This document shows positions 14,601 through 61,626 of a stretch of DNA of 64,000 nucleotides, piece after piece. The notes under the pieces were generated by a model, which did not search any database, was not told the origin of the DNA, and worked only from the letters and a program-made list of their open reading frames with translations. Source of the stretch: Nymphaea colorata (taxonomy: Eukaryota > Streptophyta > Magnoliopsida > Nymphaeales > Nymphaeaceae); assembly GCF_008831285.2 (NCBI RefSeq), contig NC_045139.1:24658412-24722411 (forward strand), written 5' to 3'. Numbering within the stretch: position 1 is the first letter of the stretch; every line of letters starts with the position of its first letter. A program made the translations under genes and the position numbers.

Positions 14601-15938
14601 AAAAGTGCACTAGTTATGCAGTGATATAGATCTTCTTGGTGATTATGGCAATACACTTTGATCATTCTGTTGTTTGAAGATGACATTATGAAATTATGGT
14701 GGTCTGATGATAATGACTTATTATGGCATTCAAAATTGCACTAGCTATGCAGTGATATAGATCTTATTGGTGATTATGGCAATACACTTTGATCATTCTG
14801 TTGTTTGAAGACGACATTTTGATAGTGTCAAGAGCTCGGTGGTGATGGACTGGGTTGAATTGCAAACTAATGTTGGTGGGGTTGACACAGCATGATGTGA
14901 TGGAATTTATTGTAGTCCAAGATAATGCTAATGCTGAAATTAAGCAGCATATCCTTATCTTGAAAATTGATCTGTTTTCTAGATATTTTTACTACTACCT
15001 AGTTTCTGCAGTTTGTGTTATATGGGTTGTATTAATCCCATAGGGAGGTATGTCACTATATCTCTTAGTTGAAACTCTCTATTTTTTGTGCTAACTGATG
15101 TAATGGTTTGCTAAGTTAGGTATGCATGCTAAGTCTGGTCACGGAGAACTTTGGTTGTCCTACCTGAACACATGATAGTTTGGCATGAGTACAAAAGGAA
15201 ATGTTTAAATGCATGGTGTTTGATAGCTAGTAAAGTTATAGTCTAATTGATTAAGTTCTTCTAATTTTACATTCGAACGTAGTAAGAAGAACTTAATTCC
15301 TTTTAGGATTGAAGCTTCCATCTTGATGGTACATGTTCCTGTTTGGTATTTTGTGAAACTTTTATGGTAATCAAATACTAAACCCCATCTTGGTTTCCAA
15401 AATCTGTAAGCATTGGAGGTTGTAAAATATACCATGACTTTGAGAAACATAATGCATCTGTATGTCCTTCTGCTGTCCATGTCATGTAACTTTTTGAAAT
15501 TTGTTTGTAATTGCTCATATGGAAAATGAATTTCAAACCTGGTTCTGTCTTTGATAAAAAAAGTGTTAGCTTTGTCACATGGTTACTGCTGTAAAGGCAG
15601 CGTACCCGGACCGGCCAGGTACGACACTGGTGCTGGTACTGTCCTGGGTACCTCTTGGGTACTGGTCAAACAGTACCGGGTACGGTCAACGTACCCAGGA
15701 CTGTATCCGTCCAATTTAAAAGTCGATCAAAGTTGACCAAGTCCTTTCTTATCCAAAATTTATGATTTCAATTTTGTTCTTTACACCATTTACACTCAGG
15801 AAACACATACAAAGTTGTGTTTTCATATTTTTTTCAATAGTTTCTTCTTTAGAAACTATAAATTTTGAATCATGAATGCGCTATTTTGTTTGAATTCTTA
15901 TTTTATGTTATATATATATATGTGTGTGTGTGTGTGTA

Positions 15939-15975
<37 letters not shown>

Positions 15976-16727
15976 GGACGTACCCCTGTACCCAAGTTTT
16001 TTTAAAATAGTCCGAACCAGCACCCGTACCCGTACCTATGTGACATAGAGTGTTAGAAATTGCTAACCTAGTGTAAGATTCTACATCGTTGCATATCTAG
16101 AAATATTAAAGATCTCATCTAAATTTTAAGCTTGGTAATTAGCATTTTCTATCTTTATTATGAAACTTTGTCAGTTAGAAAAAACAAATAAAATCAAAAT
16201 GTATGTCTATTCAAACATGGAACACACATAAAATCTGGTGAATTTATAATGGTTTATCTTGAGTCTTTCATAATATGAGCAGCTAAAACCTATTTGGCGA
16301 CCCAAGGAGCAACCATTCATGGTGATTATGAGAAATCTTTATGAATGTGATGCAAGTTTCCATTTCATAGGCGGAATGTTGCAATACCTCAATCTTTTGT
16401 TGGTATACAAGCCGTTTTCATATTGAATATTTTGACAAAGAAGCAATTGTCAACTAGGCAACTATTTTCTGTAGTTATTTTTTCCAATAAAATTTTATTT
16501 TTTTATGTTGTTTGAAAGAGCTGCTACTCCTGGTAGTTGAGTAAACTTGGTTATTTGTTTACTATCTTAATGGGCTGATAGATGCTACCTTATGTACTCA
16601 ATTTTTTTTTATTTATAATGTATTTATAGTTGTTGCTCACAAAGATAAAGGCATGTGTGATATGTCACATAGGTACAGGTACAAACCATTTTCAAAAAAC
16701 TTGGGTGTAGGGTTACAGCCATACAAA

Positions 16728-16818
<91 letters not shown>

Positions 16819-19800
16819 CAAACAATTGGAATTCAAACGAACAGAATAACATATTCATAAATCACGATCCAAAATAAATTTATAGATACTACACATAAGT
16901 GCACAACGTGCACTTCTGTGGTGCAGCTCCAATGATGTTGACTGAAAAATGCACAAATCAGGCGACAATGGCTTATTTTTAGTGTGTGAACCGCAAATAG
17001 AGCAGTTGAAATCAAAGAAAGGGAAAGTGGCAGAAATAAAGAAGTCGATGGAGGATGAAAATGCTTGCCGCTAGTTGATGGGAAAGGCTGTCGGAGATGG
17101 AAGAAGCTTATACATTCAATAGAGAAAAAAACACCCACATCAGGTGAGGGAAAAGCAGATAACGTCTGAATACCGCAGCAAAGGCGTTGCCCTTCGTCAG
17201 AGAAGTCTAACTTCACCAGAGAAGTTGCCCTTCACCGGAATACTTGATCACGTGCCGGAAAACGATGGATGGAGGTTGCCGGAGTTGCACTTACTGTTCG
17301 CATGAGCAGTGTGCACTGCTGGTCACTGTGGGTGAAACGTAAATGATATGTTTTCTTTAAAGTTAAAAAAAAAACATAAATCCTAACCTATGGGCAATTT
17401 TGGACTCGTTCAACTTTGACTGAGTCCAAAATTTGATGGATATGTATTCGGGTTCTTTAACTGTACCCGGTACGTTCAACACTGTACCCAGGACGTACCT
17501 GATTACATACCGGTACCTATACCAGCATGGTACCATTACGGTACCGGTACCCATACCAGTATCGTACCAGTACGGTACTGGTACTGCTCCTTAAGAGCAG
17601 TACCCATGTTACATAGCATTCTAATTTGTTAGATAGCTTCGAGGTGCCCAGGAAGAGCAGATCTTTGGACAGTTATACTATGTTCTTGGGCCATGTTTGT
17701 TTCTCTGGGCAGTTTTTCTCTAGGAACAATTTCGCCCATCTCTCTAGTGTCATGTGCACATTTTTGTATATTTTAATAAATTTTGACGGTTTTGTGCTTT
17801 TAGTATCAATAAACTGTACGTATGTGTCCTTTTGTAGTTTTTGTAATCAGAAACTTTTCCTTTCTGTTTTATGAAGCAATGCTACAATTATTTTTGTATT
17901 ATTAACTGAAGACAGGTTTTTTTTTTCATTTTTGCTGTGCTTGCCTTCCATACTGAAGGAAGAGAAGTGGTTTCATAACTGTAAACTGAAACTGCTTAAA
18001 TTACAAATTGTAGTGGTTTTTTTTATTATTTTATATTAAAAAAATATAGAATACTTATCATGTAGAATATTTCATATTATCCCTATGTACATCCATTGAC
18101 ATATCCATCCTTCTCTTTATCTTGACTATTTGAAAATTGAATGTAAGTCCTTGAAATTAAATTTTATGGATGAAAAATTTTTCTTCTAATAAATAATATA
18201 AATGGTCCTAAAAGAAATAAGAGAGAACGAAACAAGCATCACAAAGATAATCTGTCTATTTTGCTGACAGTGTAACTATGGTAAGATAACTGTACCCCAA
18301 GAATGGTTTGTCTGTTATTGAAAAGCAGACCTATGTCAAGCTAATTACCATGGTTTGGTGACAAACAGAATGTATTTGTCTGACAGGAGTGGGTGGTGGA
18401 AATAGGCTAAGAAATTGATGATCAAGCAGCTATCTACTTGTGAAGTGCCTATATTAAGGATGTGTTCGTAAAACTTGGACAAAGGAGTTAATGACTCAAA
18501 TTACTCTACCCTGGTCCTGCTTTACAAATGGGTTTGACAACAAATGCGATGTAGCACAGGTCTAATTGGGTTCTGTATGCAAAATGGACTTAACAATCAA
18601 GTATTAGATTGTTTTCTGAATATGGTTCTCAATATCAAATGAACTAAAAGTTATCCAAGACTGAATTTGGTTCAAAATATGGATTCATACATTATGTTGC
18701 TTCCCACATGAAATGTGAATGAAATCTAAAGTAAATGCAATTTAGAGAGGCTGTTGGAATGTAACTTAAGCTTGAAGAACAATATGACTAGCAAGCACCT
18801 ACTTTTCATGAACCTATTGTACTGCTTGACCCAATTTCAGTTTCTAACTGTTTCAGCTTGCTTTCTGATCTAATGACCGACTTTTTTGCTTTGCTATTTA
18901 ATCATGCCAAAGTACATCTGTCCATGTTGACCTCACCTATGTCACATGGTTGTGGGGTGCGGGATGCGACAAAGGTCTAAAAAAACTTCGGTGTGGGTGC
19001 AGCGAGACATTATTATATTATATATGTATATATATATATATATATATATAAATTAAATAAAAATTAACAAATAACCACTACAAATTAACAAGGATTAGAT
19101 CATTAGAGTTTGTTGTCAGGATTGTTCCATCAACTGATTCAACAATTAAAAAACATAAAATGAAATTAATCATTCTTGTCTTAATCTTTTCAGCATCTTA
19201 ACCAAAGTTTATCACAGAAAAATAGGAGAAACATAAGAAAGAATGTAATGAAGTCTACAAACTGATATCAGAAAGGATAGAAAGTAGAAGAATAGTCTTC
19301 GCAAAGTATGTTTCTCAAACGTAGTGATCTTCCAACTTAAGGTGCTCATTGTATAAAGTATATGGCTGCTTTCTCTATTCTCACAAGGATGCAGGAACAT
19401 GAAAATCTATCGCAAAGAAGACGCGATTCACGGTGATTTTGAGGATGCTGGAAAGAAGACGATTCATGACGATTTTGAGGACGCTGGAAAGAAGACGCTT
19501 CCGCGGTGAGTTTGAGGACGTTGGAAAGAAGACGATTCGCCAGCGAGAACCACGACTCGCCGGAAATCTTCGTCGGCCATTGGGAAGGAGCTTCTCACAA
19601 AGCAGAGGAGCAGTCGGCCATCGGGCAGCTGAAGGGCTTCAACGAAAACGACAAGGGTTTAAGATTTTCAAGTTTTTTTTTTTAAAAAAAAGTTAACAAA
19701 GGACACATTTGTCCTCCGCATGTCCTGACCGCACCCGACTCATCGTTGAGCCCAGTCGGGTGCGCCTTTGATGCGTCGTCCATTTCAACGGGTACGGCAG

Positions 19801-22800
19801 ACTGCATTGGACATGTGTTAACCGTGTCCAGCGCCGTGTCAGGCCGCACCCCTGCACGCACCTCAACGGTGCAGGTGCGGCAGCCTTTTTGACGAATCTG
19901 TGTGACATAGTCTCTGCACATAAGAACAGGGGAAATAATTGGAATGCAGCCAATTGGTGAAACTCTGGACCGGAGAACATGAGAAGTAACAGGAACACAA
20001 GGTTAGTCTCTTCCTAGAATGGAGTGTTCTAGGCTTCTAGCATATCCTGTCAAGTACAAAATGATGTTGCAGCCTATGTGATGTCTGTCCTGTTAAGAGT
20101 GTAAGGGGCATCAAGCTAACATGCCTGAAGTTGCAGGAATTTCTGGCTCACCAAAAGTGTGGATGGATCGTCATGTTGGATGCTCCTTTCTTCTGTAACT
20201 GTTCAATGGCTGTCCTTTCACTTTTCTTATTGCCTTTTGATGAGTCAAGGGAAGTTTCAAACTCATGTGGAATCTCTGATCCTTGAAATAATATCTGAAT
20301 TTCCAATGTCAAGATGTTTGATGGATATATTTCTTATTTTGTATTGGTTGCTGAGAAACCCAAGGCTTCTCTCTGTTTCTTCAGTTGGTGCCCAAATTCC
20401 TGCAGCGATGGTCTTGGATTGCTTTTAACTACCATATTAATCATTATTCAAGCATTTGGTTTTCTTTTAGCATTCATGGCTCTTGACCTTGACAGGTGAT
20501 ATCCATGGACAATACTCCGATCTTCTTCGGTTATTTGAGTATGGAGGTTTCCCTCCTGAAGCGAATTATTTATTTTTAGGGGACTATGTTGATCGTGGAA
20601 AGCAAAGCATAGAAACAATATGCCTTCTTCTTGCTTACAAGATCAAGTACCCAGAAAACTTCTTTCTTCTTAGAGGCAATCATGAATGTGCTTCAATTAA
20701 CCGCATCTATGGATTCTATGATGAGTGCAAGAGGAGGTTCAATGTTCGTTTATGGAAGGTGTTTACAGATTGTTTCAACTGTTTGCCTGTTGCTGCACTT
20801 GTTGATGAAAAGATACTCTGCATGCATGGTGGTTTATCACCAGATTTGAAGAACTTAGACCAAATTCGAAATATTGCTCGCCCTGTGGATGTCCCAGATC
20901 AAGGTCTCCTCTGTGATCTCTTATGGTCTGATCCTGATAAAGATATTGAAGGATGGGGTGAGAATGATAGGGGTGTATCATACACATTTGGAGCTGATAA
21001 GGTTGGGGAATTCCTAGAGAAGCATGATCTTGATCTCATTTGCCGAGCCCACCAGGTTTTGGTTTCAACTTTGTTTTGTATTTACTTTTCCTTTCCTTTT
21101 TATTACTATTGTTGTTGGATGTATGTTTTGAACGACTCACAGTAACCTATGTAGTGAAAAGTGCTAGGTGGCTCTAGGCAGTCCTGCTGAATAGAAGAAG
21201 AGGGAAAAAGATAAAGAGGAGGAAAGAAGTAAAAGGGCCAAAATAATGCTGTGGAAAAGCTTCACCTAAGCACTGTACTAGAAGATAGAATTAAGAATAC
21301 ATTTACTGTTACAAATTTGAAAAGGATAGTGTTTTGTTGGGACTGCCTAGGTGCCTCAACCATGTGTTTAGTGTACTGCTTAACACCAAATGGGATCCAG
21401 GGAGGAGCCTACGCATGCTTTTAGCTACAAACATTATGACAAGGTGCATTAATATAGGGTTTCTACTTGGCATGGTTACTGCTGATTTTCGTAGATTTTA
21501 TGCAACCTTTATTAATTGGAAACCTGGTGGTGCAAGATGGTTGAGTTGTCGAACCTAAATATTTTGTTTTTGGGGGGTGAAGGTGGGGGGCAAAGGATGC
21601 TGGTTGAGGGAAGACATACTTTATTATTTGCAGATTTGCCAGAATCTTCTACTGTGTTCTGAAGGATCACCCTTATGTTAAGGTTTTACTTATGGTATTG
21701 GTATATTCCTTGGTGACTGAACAGGTTGTGGAGGATGGATACGAATTTTTTGCACAAAGGCAACTGGTGACGATATTTTCTGCACCCAATTACTGTGGGG
21801 AATTTGACAATGCTGGGGCCATGATGAGTGTTGATGCGAGCCTTGTATGCTCATTTCAGATCCTCAAACCTTCGGAAAAGAAACTGAGAATTGGATTTGG
21901 TAACGTGCCAAAACCTGGAACACCAGCAAGGAAGGTAATTCTTCTCATTTCCATTTGTCCTGTTCCCCTTGATGCCTTTATATATAAATTATCTGTAACT
22001 TCTTTTTTCTAATAGATGCAGTATTCTTGATACTTTGTGTGCATGTGAACACTCGGGATTCCTCATCCTCTCATGCTCATTAAAGTGCATTGCAGGCAAG
22101 CAGGGACCAGCCTTTTTTATTTGCATGAAATGGATGAATCAATGTGGGACACGGGCAATGACTTATTGCTAAATAGATGAGACAATTAAATGCTACATTT
22201 ATAAAAAAGTTTCCACCAAATTATGTTAACTGTTCATAATCTTTCAAATGCTTACTAATGTATAAGAGGAACAATTTTGCATGAAATCGGGACATATGAA
22301 ACGTTTTGATATTCTGTATGTCAAAATATTCTCTACCTCTCCAATGCCTAGGGTTCTGGTTGTGGCCTGTACCTCTCTTCTTTCTTTTGAGTTTATATTG
22401 TATAAGTTGTATTGTCCTTGCTCCACCAAGGCTCACATTACTTGAGATTCAGCTTGGTCTGGAGCATCTCCTGAAGACTCAAAGATAATCACCAAAAGCA
22501 ATTGAATTCTTGGAAAGCTCGACAAAGAAATTGATAATGGAAGGACAATGTCGCCGTTCTGATGCAGGGGTCATAGTGTCTATCACACTGAGGCGTGAGC
22601 AGTTTTTCCACAGCAAATGAAATTATTATATGCTAGCAGTCTGTTCTTAAATTGGCATGTGGTGTCCATCCGTATTCTTTAGGGGGTGTTTGGCAACACC
22701 AACACTGGCACAGTGTTCCATGAATCTGTCCAAAGATTGGGGCAAGATTGTGTTTCCAAACACCTCCCTAATGGTGCGGTATGTTCACCTTTGGTGATTT

Positions 22801-22918: not shown

Positions 22919-23478
22919 TGGCCTTGTTGACATAATTGCCGGAGAGGTTGCACGGTGCACTTAGAACACGGGCAAGAAGTTCGGAAGATGCAAAAAGTTG
23001 GAATTTGGTTTGCATTGCAGCTGCTATGAGCTTGCAGTGGTTTCCATCCGCTAACTTGAAGTGGTTTGGATCACATAACTAGGACCATGTGGTCATAAGG
23101 TCGTGGAGAAATGTTTGGGAAGCTTCCCCTCTACTTTTTTCTCTATGTAAAGTAATCTAATATCTGGTAGAGAACCCCATTTTTCATGTCACAGATTGCT
23201 ACATCGTAGCTTTTATGATATAATACGAAATCAAAATTCATCACATTGCTACTAAGGATGCATCCAGTGAAATTTGGTTGCTCCCAATGGGTCACAGTAA
23301 AGGATCTGTGGGGACTTTTTGCGGTTGAGGGTTTTAGCTAATTTGGATATGTGAGAATCTGTTGGTAGGTCGGACCGTGCGTGTGGCCTTTCTGCTCAAT
23401 TCAAGACATTAAAATCTGGTAATCTTCGGGTAATCTTCGGGTAGTCTCATTTATAACCAAGTACAGTCATTCCTTTTT

Positions 23479-25470: not shown

Positions 25471-27642
25471 GGATGAAACTACATAAATATTTCCCTAAAA
25501 GAAGGTAGAGATTTTTATGCTTGTAGCTTTAAGATGGATGGTTCTGCAATATAGTAGTTGAAGAACATGCAATGGAAGGAAAAACCCAGTAAGTTAAGTT
25601 GGACTCAAAATGGTCACATGGGTGCGGGTACGGTACGGATACGGGGAAACAGGTGCGATTATGGCAATTTTCAAAATTTTTGGATACACGGATACAACTA
25701 ATTTTATATTCTCAAAATGATAAAATAAAAAAAAAACAACATTGAAAAGCCAAAGCAGAAAAATCATTTTGAGTTGATAAAAAACTGTTCTTCCAGAGGA
25801 GAACTAATACAACTGGAAAAACCATACAAAGTTACAAAGTTACAACATTAAAAATCATACAATAGAAGAGTTAAGGATCCCTTTGAAATGCAAAAACTAG
25901 TTGATTGGATCCCAATACAAATCCGAATTTGGACCGAAAATACTTGAGATTTCTTTTGCTCATTGTTCTGCTTTCGTTTTGGAGGGATTCTCATTGGGAG
26001 AAGCTTGACTAAAGAGCCAAACCTTTTACTCTATTCTCAGAACTAATGTTTTTAACTTCTTCTGAAATGGACTTCTCTTTTGCTGGGAAGTACTCGCATG
26101 AAATCCTATTAATTTTTGCTATCGGTGTCGTTCTTCCTCTTATTGCAAATCTCGTTGGATTAAAACAAATGGCAGCAATGCGTTTAAGATGTCAAGCACA
26201 GCCATACACACTCAAAGAAAACATCCCCAAATTGGAAAAAAAAACCCCAAATCAAGAACATGAAACCCCCAAATCAATGAAACCCTAACTATTAATATCG
26301 AAAAGAAAACAAAAACCACTTACCTGTCTGTCATCGGTTGCCGCCGGACACCACCAGACATCACCGTGGGTTGCCAGATGTCGTCGCCGTCGCCCACCAT
26401 AGCTGCCGAACTTCTTTGCTGGGTAATCGTTGCCGGTGAAGAGGAGAGCTCGTCAGTGAAGTGGAGAGCTCGATTAAGGCTGGGCATCGGGCCGGGCCGG
26501 GCCGGGCCGGCCTGATAACAATGTAAAAATGAAAGCTCGGTAATAGAAATGGGCCGGCCCGAAGCCCGGCCCGTTTCTAGATGGGCCGGGCCGGGCTTAC
26601 GTTATAACGGGCCTCGGGCTTCAGTTTATGCCCGAGGCCCGGCCCGGCCCGGCCCGATTGTTAACGGGCCGGGCGGGTTGGGCCGGGCTTTGAGACGCAG
26701 CAATAGCATTCAATACAACAAAAACATTTCAATACAACAAAAACATTTGAATGCTATTGTCTGAATGCCCACAATAGCATTCAATACAACAAAAACAACC
26801 TGTGGTTGTATATCTGCCCAAAAGACATTCACATTTCAGCATTACAGATCCCATTTAGCAAAGCACACCAAGAGATACAGTCCTGCACACGCTCCAACCA
26901 TCAGCTCATACTTGGAATTCACCTGAGAATTCAAAAATACATCATGTTTTTTTCTCTTCAAGATGGCATCAGATTGGAATTACAATTTACAAGCTTAATT
27001 GTTTCAAGAATTTAACACCAACATCATTCTATGCATCATCTCCATGTCCTCTCCTGGTAGTCAGCATTTCACATTACTAGAAAACTGAAAACAGGTATTC
27101 TATTGAACAGCTTCATAGTACAAAGCATTTAACATACCGGTGCAAAAGACTGTTTTCAGTTTTCACTAACAAATCTGAATAACCCTCTAACTCTAAGGGG
27201 TCTATAGACAAATGAAAATCACTTAATCAATGGAAAATCACTTAATCAGTGGCCTATTTACATGTTTCACTAACAAATCTGAATAACCCTCTATGTCCAC
27301 CATGATTGCAGTCCTCCTCTATGTCCACCATTATTGCAGTCTTGCTGCTCCTGCACTTGGATTTCACCTACAAGAGCAACGGTAGGAAACACAAGTAAAA
27401 ATTAATTCAATAAAACCTACACATATAAAAGGCTATGTTATATGGACATGCTAATTCGAAATATGAATGAAATGTTATAACATTTTACCACAACGAAATA
27501 TGAATCATGCTAATTCGTCACCAGAAGAGTCCTCCTTATCTTCAAAACTACAAAAGACACATCACCACAAGCAAACTACAATGTTAGTATATCATAAAAA
27601 ACAAAAGGAATGAGCAAAATTTAACATTAAACAATGAACATC

Positions 27643-29624
27643 TTACATTTCGCATGAGTTATCTTCATCACAAATCCAACTTTGTGTACAAACTAGCGCT
27701 TCAACAGTTTCAGGAGTGGTAGAACATCGATAATCATTAATAATTCTTCCAGCTGTATTGAATGAAGACTCAGATGCAACCGTGAATATAGGGATTGCCA
27801 ATATATCTCGAGCCATTTTGGATAAAACTCTATATTTACTTTCATTTGCCTTGCACCAATTTAATATACAGAAGTTTTCATTGGGCCAAGGTCGTTCTAT
27901 TGGATCAGTTAAATATGCTTCCAAATCTGTGCGAGGTACTTGAGGAGATACAGAACTCATGTAATATGTGAAGAAAGCATCTCTTGAAAAAGCTGAAGGT
28001 CTTTCTTCTTCAAATTCCACATTGGTGTTGTTTGCATTATCATTTTCTTCATCATATGTTGCATACACATTTTTGTACTCAGCATACAATTCATGAAGAC
28101 TTCTCTCTACTTTTTCATATTGTACCATTGCATCACGTTCATTTAAATTCTCAAGCACATACTTCAAATATCCCAATTTGGACCTGGGATCTAAGACAAA
28201 TGCAATTGCAAAGAGGACATTGTAGTCATTTTTCCAATATTTGTCAAATTTTTCTTGCATTTTGATGGCTAATGATCTTATATAATCATTGTCTGCCACA
28301 CTATGTGTACGCAAATGGTTGCGTACCTTCTGTATTTCTTCAAAAACCACATTAGCTGTTACATTTCTAGTAGCAGAGAAGATATTTGTAACATTATAGA
28401 ATAACTTTAAAAATTGGCACAAGGTAGTTGCATAACACCATTCATCCTCAGAAGGTAAATTTATATAATTGGGATCCACAGAAGCCAAATGTTGAAATGC
28501 ATCTTTGTAGAACAATGCATCTCTCAACATAATATATGTAAGTTCCATCGAGTTGGAACATCATAGGTTAATTTTTTTTTACCAATCAAGCCCACTGTTC
28601 TTATACAATCCTTAAAGGAATGTAACCGCTTTGGTGATCCCTTTACATATTTAACACTTTCACGAACTTTTGAAATTGTATCATGCAAATCTTGCATACC
28701 ATCTTGAACCATAAGATTTAGAATATGTGCACCACAACGAATATGCAAATGTTGCCCTTGCATTGGAATAAGATGTCTTCTTCCTAAGTTCTTTTTCAAT
28801 GTAGTTATTGCACTATCATTCGTCGAACAATTGTCAGCAGTAATAGAAAACAACTTTGACTGAATGTTCCATTTAGAGATGCAATCTAATAAAGCCTCAC
28901 ACAAACTATTTGCATTATGTGGCGGAGGTACATGTACAAAACTAAACATATGAGCATGCAACTTCCAATATCTATCAACATATTGTCATGTCATGCATAG
29001 ATAACCCAATGTCTGCTGTGAAGTCCACATATCAAATGTCAATGGAACTCGCTGGGTAGAATCATTTATAAATCCTTCAAGTCGGGCTTTCTCAATCTTG
29101 TACATTGACATAATTTCTCTTTTCATAATTCTTCTAGAAAATGGAACGAACCTATGATTGCAAGCTTGAAGAAGTTTATTATGATATTTATATTCTGCCA
29201 AATTGAACGGAAGCTCATGTGCTATTACACACTTTGACATCAACTTTTTAATAGACTCCATGTCAAATTTTTGTATAGATACAGAAGCGGCACCAGAATC
29301 ATTGACTGCAAGAGCTAAAGTTCTTTGTTTTCCTTCATTGATTTGCCTACTTAAGCAAGATTTTATATGTCGACTTAAATGGCTAGATCCATGACCACTG
29401 CTTGCTTTCAATTGTTCTCCACAATGTTTGCACTTTGCAAAATCTTCTCCTTTATATGTAACCAATATAAAATCAATCCATACTTTTGAAGTCTTTTTTC
29501 TCTTGGAGACAGCTTCTCTCTCGGTAGATGATTTTAATGATTCCATATTAGAAGTTGGACAATATTCTCTGTCAGAGATACCGTGCGACATAACTGACAT
29601 AAGTATTGCAGGAAAAAATATCAT
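27643..29624 (-). pseudogene. hAT (Ac-like, zf-BED) transposase with one nonsense codon and one frameshift
   Basis: The N-terminal part has a BED zinc finger (CKHCGEQLKASSGHGSSHLS, then RHIKSC). The middle has the RNase H-like fold regions: TFDMWTSQQTLGYLCMT, SITADNCSTNDSAI, GQHLHIRCGAHILNLMVQDG and VPTRWN. The C-terminal part is the hAT dimerisation domain (NWCKANESKYRVLSKMARDI, then ILAIPIFTVASESSFNTAGR). A TGA at 28986-28988 interrupts the frame between GYLCMT and the following QYVDRYWKL, which is in the same frame. At about 28548 a one-base loss after TRWN shifts the frame into LTYIMLRDAL. Outside these two points the protein is open. The start is uncertain; ATG codons cluster near 29624-29540. 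In the family the protein cuts and reinserts the element. Confidence 0.88.
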
Positions 29625-30906
29625 TCATTCGAACGAAAAAACATTAATGCAAGGAAAAACAGTAATATCATTCATTCATTGGTTCAAGGATGATCATGAT
29701 GCTGACAGGAATCAAAAAATTGTGTAAGACCCAGAAGTGAAAGACCAACTAAAAATTGATATGCATGAAGCTAATACACATGTTGAATATACAGAAATAT
29801 TTTAAAAAACTCAATTAAGAAATGAACCAGTTAGAGTCACTTATCTGAAACTAATAAAAAATCAAGCGGTTTTAATTTTCTTTTGGTGCATATGTTGTTT
29901 GTGTGAGTGTGTGTGGAAGTGTGTGAGAGAGAGAGAGAGAAGCTTGGGTGTTTTTCCAATACACACATTGATGCACAGATATGCACATTTATATTCTCAA
30001 AGCTTGCATATTCTTAGAACATTCCCTTTGCACATCTGCTGCATGCATAAAGAGTCCTTATGGTCATCAGTGTACTTTCATGTTCCTCGTGTTAATATTG
30101 ATTGGACCAATGTCCAAAATGATACATCAGCTTTTGCAGTGTAATTTTGGTCGACAGAAGATCCAAATGCTACACCATGAAAATCAACCAAATGTGTTGC
30201 CATCTTAGTCAAACTGATGTTTAAGCTGACTGATTACCAAAGCCTTGATGCAAATAGTCCAGATGCAAATGTTAACAACACAAATAACCCCTTTGATTTG
30301 AAATATATTACATGGGTCCTGAATAGAAGTAAAACAGACCAAATCTTTTCATATTCATTCTCATTAGTGCAATCAGCACCATGTAATAATTGAGGAAGGC
30401 TTGAAGACGCGATGAAAGAATGAGAGGCACAAGACAATAGAGATTTTCACAGGTAGATGTAGCATCATTTTCATCGTCACTTTCTAGAGATTTTCTAATG
30501 CCCGTTCTCGATCTATTGTAGGCACGACATAGTAAATTATCACTGCTACAGCTAGCAACAGAGGAACACCTACTCTCTTCAGAAGCATTCACAGGTTCAG
30601 CAAAAGAGGAAGGTGAATGACCATTCAAGTCTTCCCTTGCTACATTTATTATGTAAGAACCGGGTGTTTGTCCATTAAGGGAAGTATGCAAATGCTTTTC
30701 AACCACAATGGAAAAAATACATTTGCAGGATGTCGGTATCGAATAATAAAAAGCGTAACCTTCAAAGCATTCACATTGAGAATGCACAAAAGAAGAAAGC
30801 ATTTCATTTAAGATCATGACATTGAAAAAAAGACAGTGTTCAGACGAACAGGGAGAAAGGGGAAAAGTGGTGCACCTGCAAGAAGGACGGACGGGGGGGA
30901 CAACAG

Positions 30907-31030
30907 ATGGGCGACGGGGATGGCGATGGACGGACCGGAGGATGCAGCCGATGGGCGACGGGGACAGCGACGGATGGACTGGAGGATGCAGCCGATGGGC
31001 GACGGGGAGAACCGGAAAAGGCAATGGATG
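30907..31030 (+). repeat. 44-bp tandem repeat, about 2.5 copies, GC-rich
   Basis: Units ATGGGCGACGGGGA... ending GGAGGATGCAGCCG occupy 30907-30950 and 30951-30994, with a partial third from 30995. It lies in the leader side of the hAT element. The open frames across it on both strands are low-complexity. Confidence 0.85.
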
Positions 31031-31544
31031 GGCGACGGGCGACGGCGTCGGCGATGACCAACTGGGAGGACCGATCACCGGAGAAGGCAGCCGATGGCGA
31101 CGGCAATGGCCGGAGGAGGCAATCTCAAACTCTCAGTCTCTCAGTTGAGTCTCGACGGCCGACGGGAAGAAAGAGAAAGTAAGAAACAAAACAGGTGAGG
31201 AAGAAACCCTAACTAAGTTCATTTTTATTAAACCCTTCATTTTTCAGAAAAAAAAAGACGGGCTTCGAGGCCGCCAGCGATCAGTCCGGTTGGCCCGAGC
31301 CCGGCCCATTAGTTACCCGGGCCGGGCTCGGCCCGACCACTAACGGGCCCAAAATTGGTTTTCCAAGGCCTGGGCCCGGGCCCGAGTCGGGCCGGGTACC
31401 GGGTACTCGGCGCCGGCCCAGCCCGGTGCCCAGGCTTAAGCTCGACATAAAATCGTGTTTTTTTGGGTCCGGATCGGGTTTGATCCGGACCTGATCCAAA
31501 ACGTATCCACCCGTATCTCGTATCGGCGTATAGACACGTAGGGC

Positions 31545-31650
31545 TGCACACGAGCCGAGTCGAGCTCGAGCTCGAACTCGACTCGAACTCGAGTCAAGCT
31601 GCCTAACACAAGCTCGAGCTCGACTCGATTAACTCGATTAGCTCATTTAG
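31545..31650. repeat. TCGA/CTCGAG-rich repeat block, possible end of a third hAT-like family
   Basis: Starting GCTGCACACGAGCCGAGTCG, the block has repeated GAGCTCGAGCTCGAACTCG motifs in both orientations and then fades into AT-rich DNA. Similar motifs occur near 4215-4260 and 8340-8395. A start like GCTGCACACGAGC followed by such motifs looks like the end of a transposon, but I could not find a matching opposite end. Confidence 0.5.
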
Positions 31651-41700: not shown

Positions 41701-44700
41701 AAATATGTTGCAACATTCACATCATTCAAACATATCAATCACATCTTTCAAAACTTAGCCGAACCACAGAGAGTAATCTTGATCCGTGATTGGCTCGTAG
41801 CTGTTATATACAATTATCATTTTAGGCTATGTCACACGGGTACTCCTCGCAAGGTACGGGTACGGTACCGGTACGCCCGTGGGTGCGCCTTTAGTGCGGT
41901 CAACAAGGTACCGAGTACGGTCAACGTGCGACCGTACCTGGGTTCAATTTCGTCCAATTTTGGAGTCGGTCAACTTTGACCGAGTCCATAGTTGTCCATT
42001 TTTTATTTTGATGATTTTAAGTTTTTAACGTTTTAAACATCATGTAACGTTAAAATGGTTGAAAACCCTAAACCCCAAAGACGTCTTCTTCCTTCTTCGA
42101 CGCATTTCTCACCGACTGCGGCAATCTCTTTGGCGACCGGCAACTACAGTGGACGGCAGGTGGCGACGGCTGGCGGCGTTGGCGACAGTATTTTGCTTAT
42201 TTTTTGTGAGTCCTCTCGACTGACGCTTGTGTTTTCGACGGTCGGCGGCAACTTGTTCCTCCGGCGGCGATTACAACCATACGTTCAGTAGTTTTTCTGG
42301 TAGCTTTCTCTGGTTCTTCAAATCCCATCTTACAGTCCCTTTCTTTGTTTTCTTAACCTATTGTATGTCGTTTTGATTTCGTTTTTACGTTTTTTTGTTT
42401 TCTTGTTGTTTGTTTAAAATTTTTAACGATGCATCTTAATTTGGTCTGTCTTCTGAATAAGTGAATGTTCTATGGACTGTTTTTATTTGTTTTCTGTTTC
42501 TGTTTTCTTGGTTTCTGTCGTCAAGACTCTGCCAGACAGCCACTCAAGGCTTATGAGTGCTGCTAAGCCTGCTATAAATACACTTAGAACAGAAAAATAA
42601 CATTATAGGCTATAATGCTATGTTTCTGTTCCAACTGTTATTTTTTTTTGTCATTAAAATGATTAAATCAGTAGTTTTTGGCTGCAGCCTGCACCGACTT
42701 TTACTGTTTTACAGTTTTACTTGTTTAGCATGTTCTGTTTACCTGTTTAGCATTTCCTCTTTAACCATGGCTTGAGTTGTGACTTGTTTATCAAGAAAGC
42801 TGAAATATTTGTATGTTAATTACTTCCACTCTGTGTTTTGGATCATGATTTATGAATGTGCTATTCTGTTTGTAATTTTTTGATATATATATACGTGTGA
42901 ATATGTTATTCTGTTTGAAATTTTTTGATATATATATATATATGGTCACGTGTGTACAGCCGTACCCCCGCACCCAAATTTTTTGAAAATGGTCCGTACC
43001 CGTACCGGCACCCGTACCCGTACCTATGTGACATAGATTCTAGGATACTTTCTAATGCACAATTAGGGTCGGTGAGATATTCGATTTGATACCCCACCTC
43101 ATTTGTCCTAAGCAGTTATAATTGCTAGCATGCCCATGCAATTGCGTAGTAATTTTAAAAACAAAATCAATCACATAATCATTCAATCACATGCACTCCA
43201 CAGTTGGCCCCCAGACAGGGATTTGCCTGGAATGCCGCCATACCTGTTGTGCGTCAACAAAACACCCAAAATGCTTCAAGTTTCAAATCTTGTCGCCGAA
43301 GGTCTACTCAACGTGCCTAGTGTACCTGCAAACATAAGCAAGTGATAAGTTCTCTACTCGCTTCGTTTTACAATCTATACAAGTACGAAATATAATCATT
43401 GAGGCATAGGTCATCGCCTCAAGAGGGTGCCGACAAGCAGTATCGGGCCTATCGGCCCACAAAGCCCTCCAATAGGTTTTTTCCCAATTCTTTGAGATCG
43501 TGACCAAACGATTAGAACTCAAAACTTAGATTCGACTTATCGCATGTACGTTTCACACTTGTTTTTCAAGTCGATGCATCAACCCTGCAATTAAGCTTCC
43601 TAATAAACGACGTATATGCACATCAACAGAAGCATATTTCATGAGCTTGATAAAACAGTTCTAAACCTTCTCAACATCATCAAAATCTCTATCATGCTTC
43701 CCAACCACTTCAAAAGTTAACCCATCATGCTAAAAAGATAGATATACACGTGGATCCTTGTCCCTCCAAAATAGTCCTAGACCTTCCCCAAAAAGTAAAG
43801 TCACTAACATGCATTCTAAATCATCAAATCTTAAGTCGAGCATGCTCAATCAATAATTATACATGCGCTAACAGAAATTATTAGACAATTTAGGCTCGGT
43901 TAGGCCTCGCTCACCCCACTCTTAGAATCCAAACTGCTGTACTGCTCCTGGGAGCCACCTAAAGTGTTCGACTAAGCGCCAACGCCAACGATTGCTCGCT
44001 GCCGTCGCCAACAACATGGCCTGATTGCTGATGAGAGGGGGAAGACAGACTTCCCTAGCTGAAATCCAACCAAACAACAATAAATATGATGAGAATCAGC
44101 GGATGAGAGATCAAAAGAAAGGTTTGCATTGAGAATGGGGCATCCGGCATTGAGGAACTGGTTCGGCTGAAGGTGGGAGACACTCGAAGTGAGGAAGAGA
44201 CCCAAAACAGAGGGGGAAAAGTCACGAAGGAGTGCCACGGCCCTAGGGAGGCAGGGGACAACAAGAGAGAGGGAGGTTGAAAATGAGAGAGAGAACACGA
44301 GAGATGTGAGTGGGAGGAGGCTGGCAGTAAGGAGAGGGTGCGAGCAGTGAGACGGGAGAGTAGCAAAGACAGAGAGCGTGCGAGAGAGAGGGTGCTGACA
44401 AAGAGGGGAGACTGATAGAGAGAGTTCAGACAGAGGGGAGAGACAGACGGAGAGGGGAAATCAAGCGGGAAATGGGGAGAGGGAGAGGAGGAGGCAAAAG
44501 AGATGGGGAGAGCTCGAGCAGAGACAACATGGGCAGAGGGAGTGGGACGACGCGAGAGGGAGAGGGTTGCGCAGGAGGGAGATAGTGCAGACAGAGAGGG
44601 GAGACGGCAAAAACAGCGATAGGAAGAAGGTCAGACATGCGGTGAAGGGTGAGGAAGAAGAAGAAGAAAGAAGAGACAGCTGAGCGTCGCCGCCGCCACC

Positions 44701-45191: not shown

Positions 45192-47512
45192 CCCATATGC
45201 ACCTTTTTGAGGGACTGGCATATCTTCATTCTCACAAAGTGGGCCATTCGTGTGAATAATTTATCTCCCTTAAGGTCAATTTCATGTAACCACATCATGG
45301 CCTAGAAATGATTTACTACATCTCATATTAAGGCTTGTTCAACATGGCCTATAGACTTGGACACTGCATTTTAACTTGTCCGGCAGTGGACAGTGGACAC
45401 TGTAACTATGCCCTTTCATCGTCATGTTAATCAAATGGAAAGCATCATTTGATCTGAAGGAACTAGGAAGTTGGAACCTAATGTGTGTGGGAGACTGGAA
45501 TAGTATGATAGGTTCAAGCAGTCTTGCATAACAGGCAATATTGGTTGGCAATGGAGCCTGTGTTTTGCTTCTAAGTTCTAATGACAACTGTCTCTTCTTT
45601 TGTTATCCCTGGGCCCTTTGCTTTTAAAAATATTTTGTTTCTTTTATATCTTATTCTTTATATGACTGGTCTGACTCTGACAAGAATGACATAATTGCTC
45701 TAACTAGTAGTTTGAAAATAAATGAAATTTTAGGGCTATTGATTCTGCAGTTGCAAATAATCAGAGGCCTGCCAAAGTTCATGATTTGCCTCAGTTAGTT
45801 AAAAAGGTATGCACTGTAAGCCCATAAATGTCAATAATGCTCTTTTTTTTTTGGTTCTGGGCATTGGAAGCCCACATTCTTCAAAATTATTTCTTTTCTT
45901 CTGATGGTAATTGTTAATTTTTTGTTTTATAACATTACATTGAGTCTACCCCTTCCAAAAGGGTTTAAGTAGCTCTTAGTGCAGCATGAGCAGTTTTAGC
46001 ACATGTTGCAGCATGCTTGTCTTGATTCTCTGATTAATTTGGCTTTGAACAGATATGTTCATTATTTTGTGGATTTTTTATGAGTTAATTTAATTATTGA
46101 TGCATATGCTGCTCTCAAATGTCAAGTAGATGGGTGATAATCTAGCAATGGCAGGGAAAATAATTTTCATAGTTTCATTTTATTTTATAATAATTCCTCC
46201 ATTTCAGAAATTTGTTTTGTTGGTAAACATTCCTGGATGGCTGGGCGGTATAAATATGTGGAGAAAATTGTTGGAAGTAAACTCTGGATGGTACAACAAA
46301 GAATCTTGTGTCCATGATATCAGAAGATAATTAATATCGACTAACATTCCATAGGTGACATTTTCTGCTAAATTTGGCAGGGAACAAGAATATCATGCAA
46401 CCTGTCAGTCATAACCCTGATACTGTCACCTGTTATGATATTTCTTTCTTTGTATGGGCTCATTTACATGCACCAGATTGTTGCTTATATTTTTATTATG
46501 CAGGCTAAATGGTTTTATTTTATTATTATCCCTTCTTTTATCATGTTTCATTAACATTCGAACTTTCTTAGGTGTATGAACGTAAATGTGATCCCTCTCT
46601 TCAGCCAGCTATTATGGTTCTTATGTTCTCCATCAAGGTTTGTACTTCAGAATATGCATATTGTTCACCTTATCATGTTGTGGGTGACTTGCTATGCCCA
46701 TTCTTTATCGTTCCATGCATGTAGCTTTGCAATTTGCATCCTCTTTCATGATTTCATCATATTTCAAGCAGACCAAAAAGGATTGCGATTGGTGCTATTG
46801 ATTCAGATATGACAACTTATTTTCTACTAGTGCATTTTAAGAGTTTTGAGACAGCAGTGCTGTCCATGGTTAGCAGGATACAAGACATACAAGGCTTGAT
46901 AAGGGAAGCAGGAGTAGGAAGTGCTGGAAAATGCTATGAAGCTGAGAGCAACATAATTTTATATGATAGTTGTTCGAGCAAAAAAATAAAATATCTGAAA
47001 ATTGTAAAAGAAAATTGCAAAAAATGGAAAAGCAACATAGAAGCATAGCCACAAATAACGTTTCAGAGTTTTAAACGGCAAGGTTTTTCTCGGGTATAAT
47101 ATGGCAAAATTGAAATATATGGGAAAAATGTGGTAAAATTTTAAAAATTAAAAAAAAACTAAAAATGGGGAAAAATAAAATAAATGAGAAACTAATAACA
47201 CAAACATCAAAACATAAGTAGATTTGCAACAAATAAAAAATAAAAAAAAAACTTTTTGGCATTAAAAAATGAAAAAAATTAAAAAATGAAATAAAACGCA
47301 AAACAAGTTTTTTTCCCAAAAAAACACATTTTTTGAAGTTTAAATGGCAATTTATTTTATCATGTTTGTTCGCGTTGTTTTTGAAAATAAAAACTCATTT
47401 TTTGTGACTGTGTATAGAAGTGGGCAATGTATCGCAAGGGTGCGGGTGCTGGTGCAAATATGGGTGCAGATGTGGTACTCAAAAACTTGGGTGCAGGAAT
47501 ACAGTTACACAA

Positions 47513-47586
<74 letters not shown>

Positions 47587-50500
47587 AAAAAATCTTTTTT
47601 TTTTCTAAAAAAATGCGATAAATTAAGTTGCTGTTTAAAACTTTTTTTTTAAAAACGTGTTTTTTTTTAAATAGTTAAAAACGAAAAAAAAAACGTTCCT
47701 AACGTGTTTTCTTTCACTGTTTTTTTTTAATGCCAAACTTTTTTGTTTTCATTTTCTATTTTTTATTTACTTATTTTTGATGTTTGTGTTATTAGTTTCT
47801 CACTTATTTTATTTTTCCTCCATTTTTAGTTTTTAAAATTTTTTAAAAATTTACCATATTTTTCCATTTTTCTCAAGCTCGCCGTATTATACTTGATGAG
47901 ATTAGAAAGAATAATATTTGATTAACATCGAAATCTGCCCTAACTCCTCTTTATATAGACTAGAGGAGAGAGAGAAGTTACAAGAGAACCATCTAAAGGA
48001 AAAGTTATTACAAAAGTACCCTCTTAAACCTAAAACTGAATATAAACACATCTTAACACTCCCCCTCAAGTTGGAGCGTATATGTCAAATAGGCTCAACT
48101 TGGAACAGCAGCTTTGGAATGGTTCCCTTGCAAGAGCCTTAGTAAAGATATCAGCCGTTTGCACTGTAGTTGAAATGTGTGAGGTACTTACAAACTCATT
48201 TTGAATCATGTCTCTGGTATAGTGACAATCTACTTCAACATGCTTGGTTCTTTCATGAAAAGCCAGATTATTAGCAATAAACAGTGCAGCTTTGTTATCA
48301 CATAACAGTTGCATAGGAAGAGGCACTTCGACAGTAAGATCCAACATCAGGGATCTAACCCACATAACTTCAGCAGTACCCTGAGCCATAGCTCTATACT
48401 CAGATTCTGCACTTGATCTGGCAACCACAGTTTGCTTCTTACTCTTCCATGTAACCAAGTTGGATCCAATAAACACACAAAATCCAGTAGTGGATTTTCT
48501 GTCCGAGGGGCATCCTGCATAGTCGGCATCAACATACACAGATATAGTGAGTGAGGTACCATTCTGAAAGAAGAGTCCCGTTCCTGGTGAATTCTTTAGA
48601 TACCTAAGAATCATCATAGCAGCATCCCAATGAACTTTCTTGGGCTTATCCATAAATTGACTCACTCTGCTAACAGCATAGGCAATGTCAGGTCGAGTAA
48701 CAGTGATGTATAGGTGCTTCCCAACAATCCCTCTATACTGTCTCGCATCAACATCTTCAGTATCATCATCATACAGACGGGTATTGATATCCATAGGCGT
48801 GGATGCAGGTCGACACCCCAGCATCCCTGTCTCTTGCAAAACATCAGTAACGTATTTCCTCTGGCACATGATAAGGCCCTTTTGATTTCTGGCAAACTCA
48901 ATACCGAGGAAATAACGTAGTTCACCAAGGTCCTTGGTGACAAAGTGTTGTCCAAGGACATCCTTGATGTTGGAAATCCCCTGATCATCATCCCCTGTAA
49001 CAATGATATCATCAACATAGACAAGAACTATCACCGTACCTGTAGAAGTCTTCTTGACAAAGAGGGAATGATCGGCCGAAGAGCGTCTGAAGCCCTCATT
49101 CTCAATATTCTCTGACAATTTCTGAAACCAAGCTCGAGGACTCTGTTTCAGACCATAAATCGCCTTTCGCAATCTGCACACTTTCTGACACTCCCCCTCA
49201 GCAACAAACCCTGGTGGTTGCTGCATATACACTTCTTCATGTAAGTCACCATAGAGAAAGGCATTTTTGACATCAAGCTGTGATAGGGACCAATTCTTGC
49301 TGACAGCCACAACAAGGAGAATCCGTAAAGAAGCATGTCGTGCCACAGGAGAGAAGGTATCATAATAATCAACCCCATAAGTTTGGGTATAGCCTTTTGC
49401 AACCAGACGAGCCTTATATCTGTCAATGCTGCCATCCGCTCTGTATTTGAGAGTAAAGACCCATCTGCAACCAACAATGGCTGCATCAGCTGAAGGAGTA
49501 ACAAGTGTCCAGGTGCCTCTAGACTGAAGAGCATCCATCTCTTCTTGCATAGCTGCGGCCCATTTGGGATCAGAGAGAGCATCCATGGGATTCTGTGGAA
49601 GAGCAATAGCCGACAGCCCCTTTACAAACTGTCGGTACATAGGGGTGAGTCTATCCATGGATAAATGACCAGAGATAGGATGCAAAGTGCAACTGCGTTT
49701 GCCTTTCCTTTGAGCAATGGGCATATCAAGTTCATTAGGAGCATGAACATGCTCGTGACATTCTCCTATGTCATCATTACATAAAAAATTGTCAGTGGAG
49801 TTTGTGTCAGGAATTACCTTGGGCGTGCTGGGTGAAGGCACAGGTGCACATTGAACAGGCGCAACAGGTTTAGTACGACGTTGGTAGACAGCCCCAAAAC
49901 GTGGATCTACTGGTTTTGGACAACTCATGAGAGGTAGAGGAAAATGGACTTCATCATTCAATTCAGGCGCCCTTAATTGAGTTCCATTGGGGGAGAAGAA
50001 AGAGGTTGATTCAAAAAATGTAACATCAGCACTCACATAATACCGACGAGTAGAAGGATCATAACATCGATATCCCTTTTGAGTGCGGGAATAACCAACA
50101 AAGATCGTTTTGATGGCCCGAGGAGACAACTTATCTCGCCCAGGACCAAGCAACTGAATAAAGGCAACACATCCAAAAACACGAGGTGGAACAGAAAACA
50201 AGTCTCTGTCAGGAAAGAGGACAGAGATAGGAATAAGGTCTCCCAACACAGATGACGGCATACGATTAATAAGATAGCATGCTGTGAGAACAACATCTCC
50301 CCAGTAAGAATGGGGAACATGGCTATGTATGATAATGGTTCTGGCAACATCAAGAATATGACGGTGTTTCCGTTCAGCAACCCCATTTTGTTGGGAGGTA
50401 TAGGCACAAGAGGTTTGGTGGATGATACCCTTATCCCTGAAAAATTGTTCTAAAGAGGAAGCACAGAACTCAAGAGCATTGTCAGAGCGCACAATTTTGA

Positions 50501-58900: not shown

Positions 58901-59640
58901 AGGACGTGCTCGTACATTTTAGGAAAATGTGGTAAAGTTGCATGGCATGCCTTGGTCCATAGTGAGCAATCAAGACCCATATTCTTAATCCATTTCTGGC
59001 AGTAGTACTTCAAGGCACAAGCAACTACACTGAACTTGAGTACGTCATACCACCTGCAAATTGACGGGCAAACCAAGGCAGTTAATCATGTCTTAGAGAC
59101 TTATTTGTGCTCTTACACTGAGCTTCAACCTCATAACTAGATGGAATATTTTTCATGGGCTGAATTTGCATATAATATGACATCCCATCAGCTGTGGCAG
59201 TTTATGGACGACCGCCACCTGATGTATGTTCCTGTCTGCTATCCAATCAGCAGGATGAAGTGGAGGTACACTTACTCAGCAGTGAAAAAAACATTGAAAA
59301 CAATTGTTTGTCTAGTAGATGCACACAACCACACGATCAGCAACACTATAAACACGAGCACCATAAGGAATATCAGGTGGGTGGTCTGGTCTATCTCAAG
59401 AATTATCCTATGGACAGACCTTAGTGTATAATAGCTGGAGAACATAAGCTCTCTGTGCACCATTCAGGACCATTTTCCATAACAGCCCGAGTAGGCAAGG
59501 TGGCTCAAAATAACCTGCTGCTCAATGGCTAGTAGAATGGCAAAGCGAAGAACCTCAGAGCCAGCTTGGGAAGACTGTGCTCAGTTACTGCAATAATTTC
59601 CAAATTTCAAACTTAGAGGAGGTGTTTGTTGAGGGGGAGG
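55977..59640 (+). mobile_element. Degenerate Ty3/gypsy retrotransposon
   Basis: The plus strand shows, in order: a primer-binding-like TGGTATTAGAGC (55980 region), a protease region (PEISLHTFSG, then GADLVLGMQWLKQLGNVEWD), reverse transcriptase (FCADCRACNAITVK, then KSDLSAGYYEMGIV; AFFDDILIYRQDEEKHRGHL with the FDD core at about 57575), the RNase H region (HYLIARRFEVHADRSSLKCY; GYEFDIVYRRGIENVAADGL at 58310-58365), and integrase ([20 protein letters not shown] near 58640). Stops and shifts occur between all blocks. The 3' end is near 59640, after a GTTGAGGGGGAGG purine tract. Neither LTR could be delimited. Confidence 0.82.
57963..57983 (+). repeat. Run of 21 C
   Basis: An uninterrupted C21 tract, preceded by CCCCCACCA-type sequence, lies inside the RNase H region of the gypsy relic. 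Such a run may be a mutation, an assembly artefact or both. Confidence 0.9.
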
Positions 59641-61310
59641 AGCAGTGATAGTTATAAGAAAAGGTAGTCAGGTCGGGTCAGTTGTTAGTCTGGAACTATG
59701 ACTAATCACTCGTGTACACAAGGGTCGAGGAAAATCTTACTGATTAGCATGAGAATAAGAACAAGGCCCTTGAGTTTTCCCTTTTAACTTTCTTTAACAG
59801 TCTGCATACGTATAAAACAGATTAGTAAGATTACTTGTCAACTAACACAGGTTGTTAGGTTCACAGCAAACAGATGATGATTAAAATAAAGAAACAGATT
59901 ACTAGACACTAGGACAGGTTCTACTTATAAATCCAATAAAAATTAAAATAGATTTATACAACAAAGCAGAAATTCCAAAGCAGATTGGATTAGAAAAGTC
60001 AAGAGTGCTGCCCACTGGTTGTCGGTCTCCACTGCAGATGCTGGTGGGGAGCTGGGGGGGAGAGAGTGCACAATGCAATGGAAGGGGGAAAAGGGAATTT
60101 TGAACCCTAAATTGTTCCATTTTAAAAGTTAACTAGAGGTTATTTGACCCCACTGAACTTATGGTTGACTCGAGTTAGGAGTGCACCTTTGTTGGACAGA
60201 AATAGACTGGTGCTTGACTGCACCCTACTTGTGTTGACTGAGTTTGATGCCACACCTGCACCAACATGTCATGTCGACTCAGGTACATTGCTGGTTTTCA
60301 TAAGTTGTGTTACTTAAAAAACTCAGTCACACAACCAATTAAGTACATGGGCAACCACATAGAATATTGGTGAGAAAAGGCTTGGGGATTTATAGACAAT
60401 ATGGATGTGCAGCCTCACTTGGGCCTTCTCAAGTTCTTTGATGGTAGGATATAATACTCCAAGAAGACAATAAGAAAAAGGTTAGCTGAATGGGAAAAAC
60501 ATTGAGAAACTGGAGGATGGGAACCCAAACAATTGATGTCATGGCTTCTAATAGTGAGGATGCATCAACTGTTGTAAAATGTGTTGCAACCTGTGTTGGT
60601 TGGTTCCAAGGTAAGATCATGGTTAATGTAACACTGTCATATGGCACCGACTTTGACACGATGTGGTGTGTGTGCTGCCTATGGCTTGAGTACGGCAAAG
60701 TAAAAAGGAGAACATGAAGAAGATTGAGGGAAAGAAAATTCACATATATAATTACATAGACAATCACATACAGATTGTTAAAATGATGTATAATTATTCA
60801 GTTAATTACACTGCGTTCAGTGTTTTAATGTTGAAAATCCAGCAACTCAGTCAACTCATGACTTGGCGTGTCTGCTTGGTGGCTCAGTTTGAATCTGTTA
60901 ACTATTTTTTTGTAAAAGACGAACCATAACTTGTCATTAGAACCTAAAAGGTATCTGATTACTTGTATAATTCAGATAAGTTAAATTAACATTAACTAAA
61001 GCTATGAGTATGACTAAGTTATGTTTACTTATATATAACAAGCAATTGGACAAGTAAACTACTCTGTGGTTGCATACTTCAACATAAGTGAGCATCAAGT
61101 ATCAATATATCAATGAAAAATAACTCCAAAGAAAGCATGAAAGTCGAACTATTCAACATTTACAGCTATCTCAAAGCTAACAAAGTGAACATGTGGGTAG
61201 ATAATATACCTGAACCTAAAAGCCTATTCAGCTTTACAATTCATTTTTAATTTTCAAATTTTATAAGTGAACAATGATTCTAATTTTATAATGTTCCAAA
61301 AGATAAGAAG
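59641..61310. other. Spacer within PIAL-like intron 7
   Basis: The first several hundred bases may be the gypsy 3' LTR, but no matching 5' LTR was seen. The rest is AT-rich with no recognised gene; a 75-codon frame at 60490-60717 has no known motif. Confidence 0.45.
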
Positions 61311-61504
61311 CTATGTTGCGTGGACACTTTAAGTGCATGTGCTGGAACATAACGCTGGTGCTGTTTCAGGACACTGCTTGGAATGACAGACTTAATTTTT
61401 GTGATTTTTTGGTATATTCTTGTAATTTTTTCTATATGCTTTTTTTAAAATCTATTTTAGCATTTTTTGTTCGGTAATATATATTTTATAAATGTAAACA
61501 ATGA

Positions 61505-61535
<31 letters not shown>

Positions 61536-61626
61536 CACGTATACATTCTGCCATGTCCCTGTACCAAAAGTTTTTAAAATAGTCCACACCTGTGCTGGCG
61601 GCCTCATCCGTAACCATGTGACATAG
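61311..61626. mobile_element. Family B-like short element (316 bp)
   Basis: The left end CTATGTTGCGTGG resembles CTATGTCACATGG. The right end CCATGTGACATAG is the family terminus, preceded by CCCTGTACCAAAAG and TTTTTAAAATAGTCC and by an AT microsatellite (61505-61535) about 90 bp from the end. Target duplication not found; the left boundary is inferred. Confidence 0.6.

Follow-up and report, generated by a model that had tools for sequence, protein, structure and literature searches.

A probably hAT-type family of non-autonomous transposons in Nymphaea colorata carries an AC/AT tract inside one of its ends

The window, by which we mean the whole stretch of 64,000 nucleotides analysed here, was taken from contig NC_045139.1 of the Nymphaea colorata genome. 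Matches to a PP1-type phosphatase are found on its forward strand at 11453-11617, 20483-21061 and 21716-21883, and domains of retroelements and of hAT transposons occur elsewhere in the window; Rfam and tRNA scans of it gave no matches. Three members of the transposon family described below, E1, E2 and E3 (15570-19910), are found inside an interval of 4.4 kb, which is flanked by two stretches corresponding to consecutive parts of the phosphatase. If these matches represent one gene, the three elements probably sit in its first intron.

E1 (15570-16048, + strand) is a complete element, with what we term the GT end on the left and the microsatellite end on the right. It is bordered by the target duplication AGTGTTAG at 15562-15569 and 16049-16056 (8/8 matches), its microsatellite (TA)n(TG)n(TA)n at 15909-15974 lies 74 bp from the right terminus, and outside this repeat it is 89-94% alike to the genomic loci L027, L034 and L037. 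Also complete is E4 (41827-43036, + strand), which is flanked by ATTTTAGG and ATTCTAGG (7/8) and contains a duplicated unit of about 45 bp (42853-42943) with an (AT) run in each copy. The first-pass annotation had claimed clear 8-bp duplications for two elements, and E1 and E4 are indeed such cases. E2 (16660-17616, - strand) has two supported ends, a (CT)n(AC)n(AT)n microsatellite at 16728-16818 and a palindrome GGTACTGCTC/GAGCAGTACC at its GT end, and E3 (18937-19910, - strand), with (TA)n at 19014-19050 and a weak GT end, belongs to a GTGC-type subfamily; neither has a target duplication. The same holds for E5 (61311-61626, + strand), in which the right, microsatellite end is good, the left end is weak and (AT)n is found at 61505-61535. 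E6 (47425-47583, + strand) is a lone microsatellite end with (ATAC)n(AT)22, for which no second end was found. It is contained in the loop of a foldback repeat (47094-47892) with arms of about 310 bp and GTATAATAYGGC ends, and a stretch resembling this repeat, as judged by eye, is present inside the family element L073.

The seventh element, E7, is split. Its left part (25609-26474, - strand) is a homologue of the microsatellite end that lacks the microsatellite and reaches up to a nested element, and its putative right part (31439-31545, - strand) is weak, with a best flank match of 6/8. The nested element (26475-31438, - strand, about 5 kb) is a different hAT transposon with CCGGGC-rich ends and its own duplication AGCTCGAT/AGCTCGAC (7/8); BED zinc finger, RNase-H and hAT dimerisation domains are found in separate reading frames, and the pieces of the transposase gene lie at 27646-29624.

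The word CTATGTCACA occurs 14 times in the window with at most one mismatch, compared with a mean of 4.3 and a maximum of 11 in shuffled sequences. The microsatellite-side terminus was modelled so as to include no more than a few repeat bases (from E1 and E4). This model finds all of E1-E7 at E = 2e-11 or better, and each of the seven was found again by a model made without it (E = 1e-20 to 7e-5). The model of the GT end finds E1-E4; when left out, E1, E2 and E4 return at 6e-15 or better and E3 at 0.049. It gave no match at the left end of E5, where only a terminus with three mismatches is found, or at the right end of E7 near 31541. The shared ends that had been assigned to all of these elements are thus retained for both ends of E1-E4 and for one good end each of E5, E6 and E7, and are without such support for the second ends of the latter three. 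The inverted ends measure 10-13 bp and the two ends are asymmetric. GGTRC-rich subterminal repeats are present at most ends, and GTAC reaches up to 9 occurrences per 120 bp there, against 2.4 per kb in the window, with few or none at the ends of E3 and E5.

In the genome assembly (407.8 Mb, 783 contigs), the 13-base terminus CTATGTCACATGG has 611 + 541 = 1152 matches, and its reversed control has 1. The 21-base microsatellite-side terminus CTATGTCACATAGGTACGGGT has 195 + 200 = 395 matches and a reversed control of 0, so that the ends are consistent among genome copies, as had been expected. In viral contigs, one search pattern was found in 0 places and another in 2, where the match is confined to the 17 bases of the pattern.

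For the analysis of target sites, the matches to CTATGTCACATAGGTACGGGT were ordered along the map, the first 30 were used, and the matching terminus was sought within 1.5 kb. Duplications of 8 bp with at least 7/8 matches border 19 of these 30 loci, 13 of them exactly, as opposed to 0.12 with permuted flanks; 11 loci do not show a duplication at 7/8. In the window, E1 reaches 8/8, E4 7/8, E2 3/8, E3 2/8 and E5 3/8, and random pairs of window 8-mers attain 7 or 8 matches with a frequency below 0.001. The tabulated flanks therefore bear out the proposed 8-bp duplication for E1, E4 and the 19 loci, and do not do so for E2, E3, E5 and the other 11. Further cases are four pairs of ends that face inward at a short distance, selected by eye in the CTATGTCACATGG list (8, 8, 7 and 7 of 8), and the flanks of L075, L077, L078 and of two short elements in L094, read by eye as 7/8 or 8/8. 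An empty site is also available: L122 (C1:10362700-10363000) matches both flanks of E4 at 81-83% and has the 8-mer in a single copy, ATTGTAGG, and is a related empty copy of the E4 target. It lies within what had been taken for a 4.6-kb element (C1:10360781-10365207), a candidate that was rejected as it contains this empty target copy instead. Among 33 listed duplications, A is found at position 7 in 22 (p = 2e-5) and T at position 2 in 16 (p = 0.02); both occur together in 8, where 3.1 are expected, which is a trend and no strict nTnnnnAn rule.

A further property of the ends is a palindrome close to the GT terminus (bp 10-45), which is found in 12 of 24 elements (shuffle p <= 0.05), compared with 3 of 24 at the microsatellite end. 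This set does not include L013 and L030, which belong to the 19 duplication-bearing loci. The palindrome directly follows the terminus in 11 of the 12 cases, and in L023 it lies further inward; the other 12 GT ends are without a significant palindrome. Its arms differ together between subfamilies, reading GGTACTCCTC/GAGGAGTACC, GGTACTGCTC/GAGCAGTACC or GTACGTGGG/CCCACGTAC, which is a new observation. Covariation was assessed with 14 GT ends chosen by hand from the 24 elements and with 500 shuffles. Paired cells amount to 77%, as compared to 66.5% in shuffles (0/500) and at most 51% when slid, the cells changed on both sides number 17 versus 8.4 (0/500), and the covariation score is 0.237 versus 0.108 (0/500). 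In the same 14 ends, two other measures did not exceed the shuffles: 5 pairs have changes on both sides (4.6 in shuffles, 295/500 as high), and further pair types number 10 (8.6 in shuffles, 123/500 as high). According to the accessible part of PMC10368747, the left end of the Hermes transposon has a quasi-palindrome of two subterminal repeats within bp 11-27 that is bound by two BED domains. Because the palindrome of the family resembles it, this analogy suggests that the GT end corresponds to the left end.

The family shows typical MITE features, namely no Pfam match in the three interior reading frames tested (from E2, E3 and E7), 1152 ends and distinct size groups. These groups are about 405-510 bp and 593-615 bp; some copies reach 1.2-1.7 kb, which is above the usual size of MITEs. 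Several subfamilies can be distinguished, among them, as judged by eye, a GTGC-rich one (E3, L098, L099) and an E7-like one without the tract (L005, L008 and one element in L094). Eight E3-like GT-end matches with about 70-72% identity are clustered on one contig arm (C7, 22.3-24.5 Mb). The interior of E4 has at least nine further genomic copies with 95-98% identity over about 210 bases (among the best 40 of 176 candidates), and in view of this similarity the E4 subfamily has probably spread recently; E4-like interiors also occur in L076, L077, L078 and L098-L101. The microsatellite ends of E1 and E4 are 73% identical over 196 aligned bases and both elements have good duplications, and most of the difference between them should predate insertion and mark old subfamilies. 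The idea of one homologous leader across the seven interiors was dropped, as pairwise comparison showed little: the interior scores were 41 for E2-E3 (shuffle maximum 34), 40 for E2-E4 (39) and 28 for E2-E5 inverted (27), and the inverted interior match of E2 and E3 is an AT repeat.

A copy with a transposase gene between family ends was sought among hAT loci of the genome. No family end was detected at E 0.1 in 30 loci with hAT RNase-H domains (L041-L070), and none in 15 hAT 3' flanks (L079-L093), where the best E was 0.74. The near-identical DUF659-hAT copies L096 and L097 have CGTATCG-type repeats and, of family termini, only chance matches with two mismatches; L056 and L057 have a terminus-like word without GTAC repeats. 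L094, in which inward-facing ends are 6-9 kb apart, was rejected because it contains complete but short elements together with a DUF659 hAT whose repeats are different. A comparison by eye of the coordinate lists of family ends and transposases gave no fitting pair among the matches listed, and the arrangement of near pairs at C1:7.70 Mb, C9:8.71 Mb, C10:7.47 Mb and C14:8.00 Mb is not that of an element extending from the GT end across the gene. The transposase candidates came in sets of 374, 1113 and 1131, of which 150 each were scored and a small number read. Genes of the DUF659-type hAT group appear to be very common here, with 1131 first-look candidates, 150 of them scored (for example L094:4955-5860); at least eight scored copies have an open frame of 650 amino acids and an equal score, and two of these have CGTATCG-type repeats.

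The consensus of hAT ends is YARNG. The family terminus CTATG has T at the second base and mismatches it there, which is a weak criterion. Together with the lack of any transposase linked to these ends, this departure would fit another superfamily with target duplications of 8 bp, such as that of a short-ended Mutator-like element. We regard such an origin as unlikely, although it is the alternative to be taken most seriously, because the 8-bp duplications, 13 of 30 exact, the bias for A at position 7, the short ends and a palindrome that, like the one of Hermes, lies close to one terminus speak against it. These duplications, short ends, subterminal repeats, the A7/T2 trend and the one-end palindrome favour hAT, and the family is of a MITE-type, non-autonomous kind and probably belongs to this superfamily; membership is likely and unproven, as no transposase with family ends was found. 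The earlier description as a hAT-like non-autonomous family is consequently supported by the duplications and the hAT-like ends, and the transposase-bearing copy that would complete it was not found in the loci searched.

A further feature of the family is the tract in its microsatellite end. A perfect dinucleotide run of at least 8 units is found no more than 60 bp inward of six of the seven modelled window ends, which is true for 1.3% of position and strand choices. Among the 30 genome copies, 22 have a run of at least 5 units at 50-170 bp from the terminus (flank controls 5/180), and 11 have one of at least 8 units (4/180). In the 22 copies, the tract starts 64-110 bp inward in 18 and 138-158 bp inward in 4, so that its position in the element is consistent, as the first-pass annotation had stated. 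It had also stated that one end always carries a microsatellite, which goes too far: E7 and 8 of the 30 copies, which are without a run of 5 units, do not. The layout of this end is a CAAAAAACTTGGGT-type block followed by the AC/AT tract and, in many copies, by family sequence on the inner side. Since this inner block was recognised in 14 of the 30 loci, the tract there is inside family sequence, and the view that the microsatellite travels with the element stands: the tract is inside the element and moves with it. Its length varies among close relatives. A subfamily with 92-96% identity outside the tract has runs of 6, 6, 15, 6 and 6 units, and a second one, with 88-94%, has runs of 17, 5, 19 and 15 units. 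In L025, an internal duplication spans the AT tract, similar to the one at 42853-42943 in E4, which suggests that the tract also triggers larger local duplications.

Inherited seed plus slippage after insertion is the simplest reading of these data: the copies appear to have in common a short AC/AT seed, variable in length, and not a microsatellite in its final form. Taken together, we consider it quite probable that the elements form a non-autonomous cut-and-paste family with several subfamilies, likely of hAT type, whose internal seed tract slips separately in each copy. The family would be moved by a transposase supplied in trans, most likely of hAT type, for which the palindrome at the GT end, the putative left (5') end, may serve as a paired binding site of BED domains. 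At each transposition the tract would be copied with the element as a short seed, and replication slippage would then lengthen or shorten it independently in each copy.

A more functional interpretation would regard the ends as selected working modules, in which the palindrome docks a BED pair, the changes of its arms record switches of specificity, and the AC/AT tract is a needed, flexible and AT-rich spacer beside the binding repeats, so that the element itself maintains the microsatellite. To us this appears improbable as a whole. A slightly lower chance is given to the view that the tracts are not inherited and form separately in an AT-rich place. The motifs vary between copies (AT, AC, CT, ATAC), and E7-type elements are AT-rich at this place without having a repeat, which speaks for such an origin. 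However, the short tract forms read GTACACACAC...ATATATGTCAAAAAATT in many copies, as judged by eye, and the GTGC-type loci L098 and L099, with interiors 78-81% identical to E4, have an AT tract in the same position. It may also be a mixed case, with the seed inherited and the growth independent.

A preference of the elements for insertion at TA microsatellites already present, either within or next to them, a pattern known from the plant families MuTAnT, Ac-mMITE and Micron (PMC8449440, PMC4486113, in their accessible parts), is very improbable, as the terminus and the 8-bp duplication lie outside the tract, the 33 duplications are free of AT repeats apart from a few AT-rich ones, at least 14 of 30 loci have family sequence on both sides of the tract, and no tract is present in the 301-bp empty site of E4. 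We likewise give almost no credit to the idea that the AT repeats of this genome stem mainly from the family, for while six of the eight AT-type loci of the window with runs of at least 8 units are within family elements, a family end was detected beside only 1 of 20 sampled (TA)11 arrays (L105, E = 0.0017), and the pattern S(TA)11 has 8522 + 8545 places, i.e. array edges, in the genome. The sample is small, about every fifth listed place, all in the first 1.9 Mb of one contig, and the pattern, in which the TA run has to be immediately preceded by C or G, misses some family tracts. On this evidence, the proposal that the family explains the dispersed AT repeats is not supported.

Among known transposons, Hermes of the hAT superfamily shares several traits with the family. 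Hermes, as described in the accessible parts of PMC10368747 and PMC2803484, generates 8-bp duplications with an nTnnnnAn trend, and the former source also describes short and asymmetric ends, subterminal repeats and the left-end quasi-palindrome. It differs in that it codes for a transposase, whereas none is linked to the present family, and in that its repeat is AAGT instead of GGTRC; the AC/AT tract near the other end is a feature of the present family. Microsatellite-carrying elements are already known in insects and frogs, and TA-targeting families in plants. The lepidopteran mobile microsatellites (Coates et al. 2011, via PMC9659126) are, by title, MITEs with hitchhiking microsatellites; they are insect elements with (GTCY)n, and the present family is a plant family with AC/AT. 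DINE-1 and mini-me of Drosophila have a conserved end block that contains a variable, GTCY-rich microsatellite, and a (TA)4 in their conserved core, but insert between TT without 8-bp duplications, according to the accessible part of PMC2374699, and belong by title to the rolling-circle Helentrons (PMC4067079). In the Xenopus elements Xmix/Xstir and T2-MITE, an internal segment of a MITE was amplified to a repeat family (accessible part of PMC6004289; Hikosaka and Kawahara 2004, via reference lists), but the target is TTAA and they are presumed to be of Kolobok type (PMC6004289). Micron of rice (by title), MuTAnT of Medicago and Ac-mMITE of pineapple are plant elements tied to TA microsatellites; as far as the accessible parts of PMC8449440 and PMC4486113 describe them, they target existing TA repeats, which then flank the element, and the present family is set apart from them because its tract is internal. 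A literature search on microsatellite-bearing MITEs and hAT elements gave no such plant hAT family in the titles and starts of abstracts listed, in a collection with little subscription literature, and the word "microsatellite" is absent from the main text of a 2025 review of plant MITEs. Searches for the terminus and GTAC-repeat strings returned unrelated papers only, among the matches listed.

The list of elements that disperse microsatellite seeds is extended here by a DNA transposon family of plants. Since the likely starting sequence can be read from related copies, its intact duplications and several subfamilies would allow the growth of a repeat after insertion to be measured, and the GT-end palindrome offers natural material for studying the evolution of transposase binding sites. 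Even an abundant family that carries a microsatellite may contribute a small share of the AT repeats of its genome.
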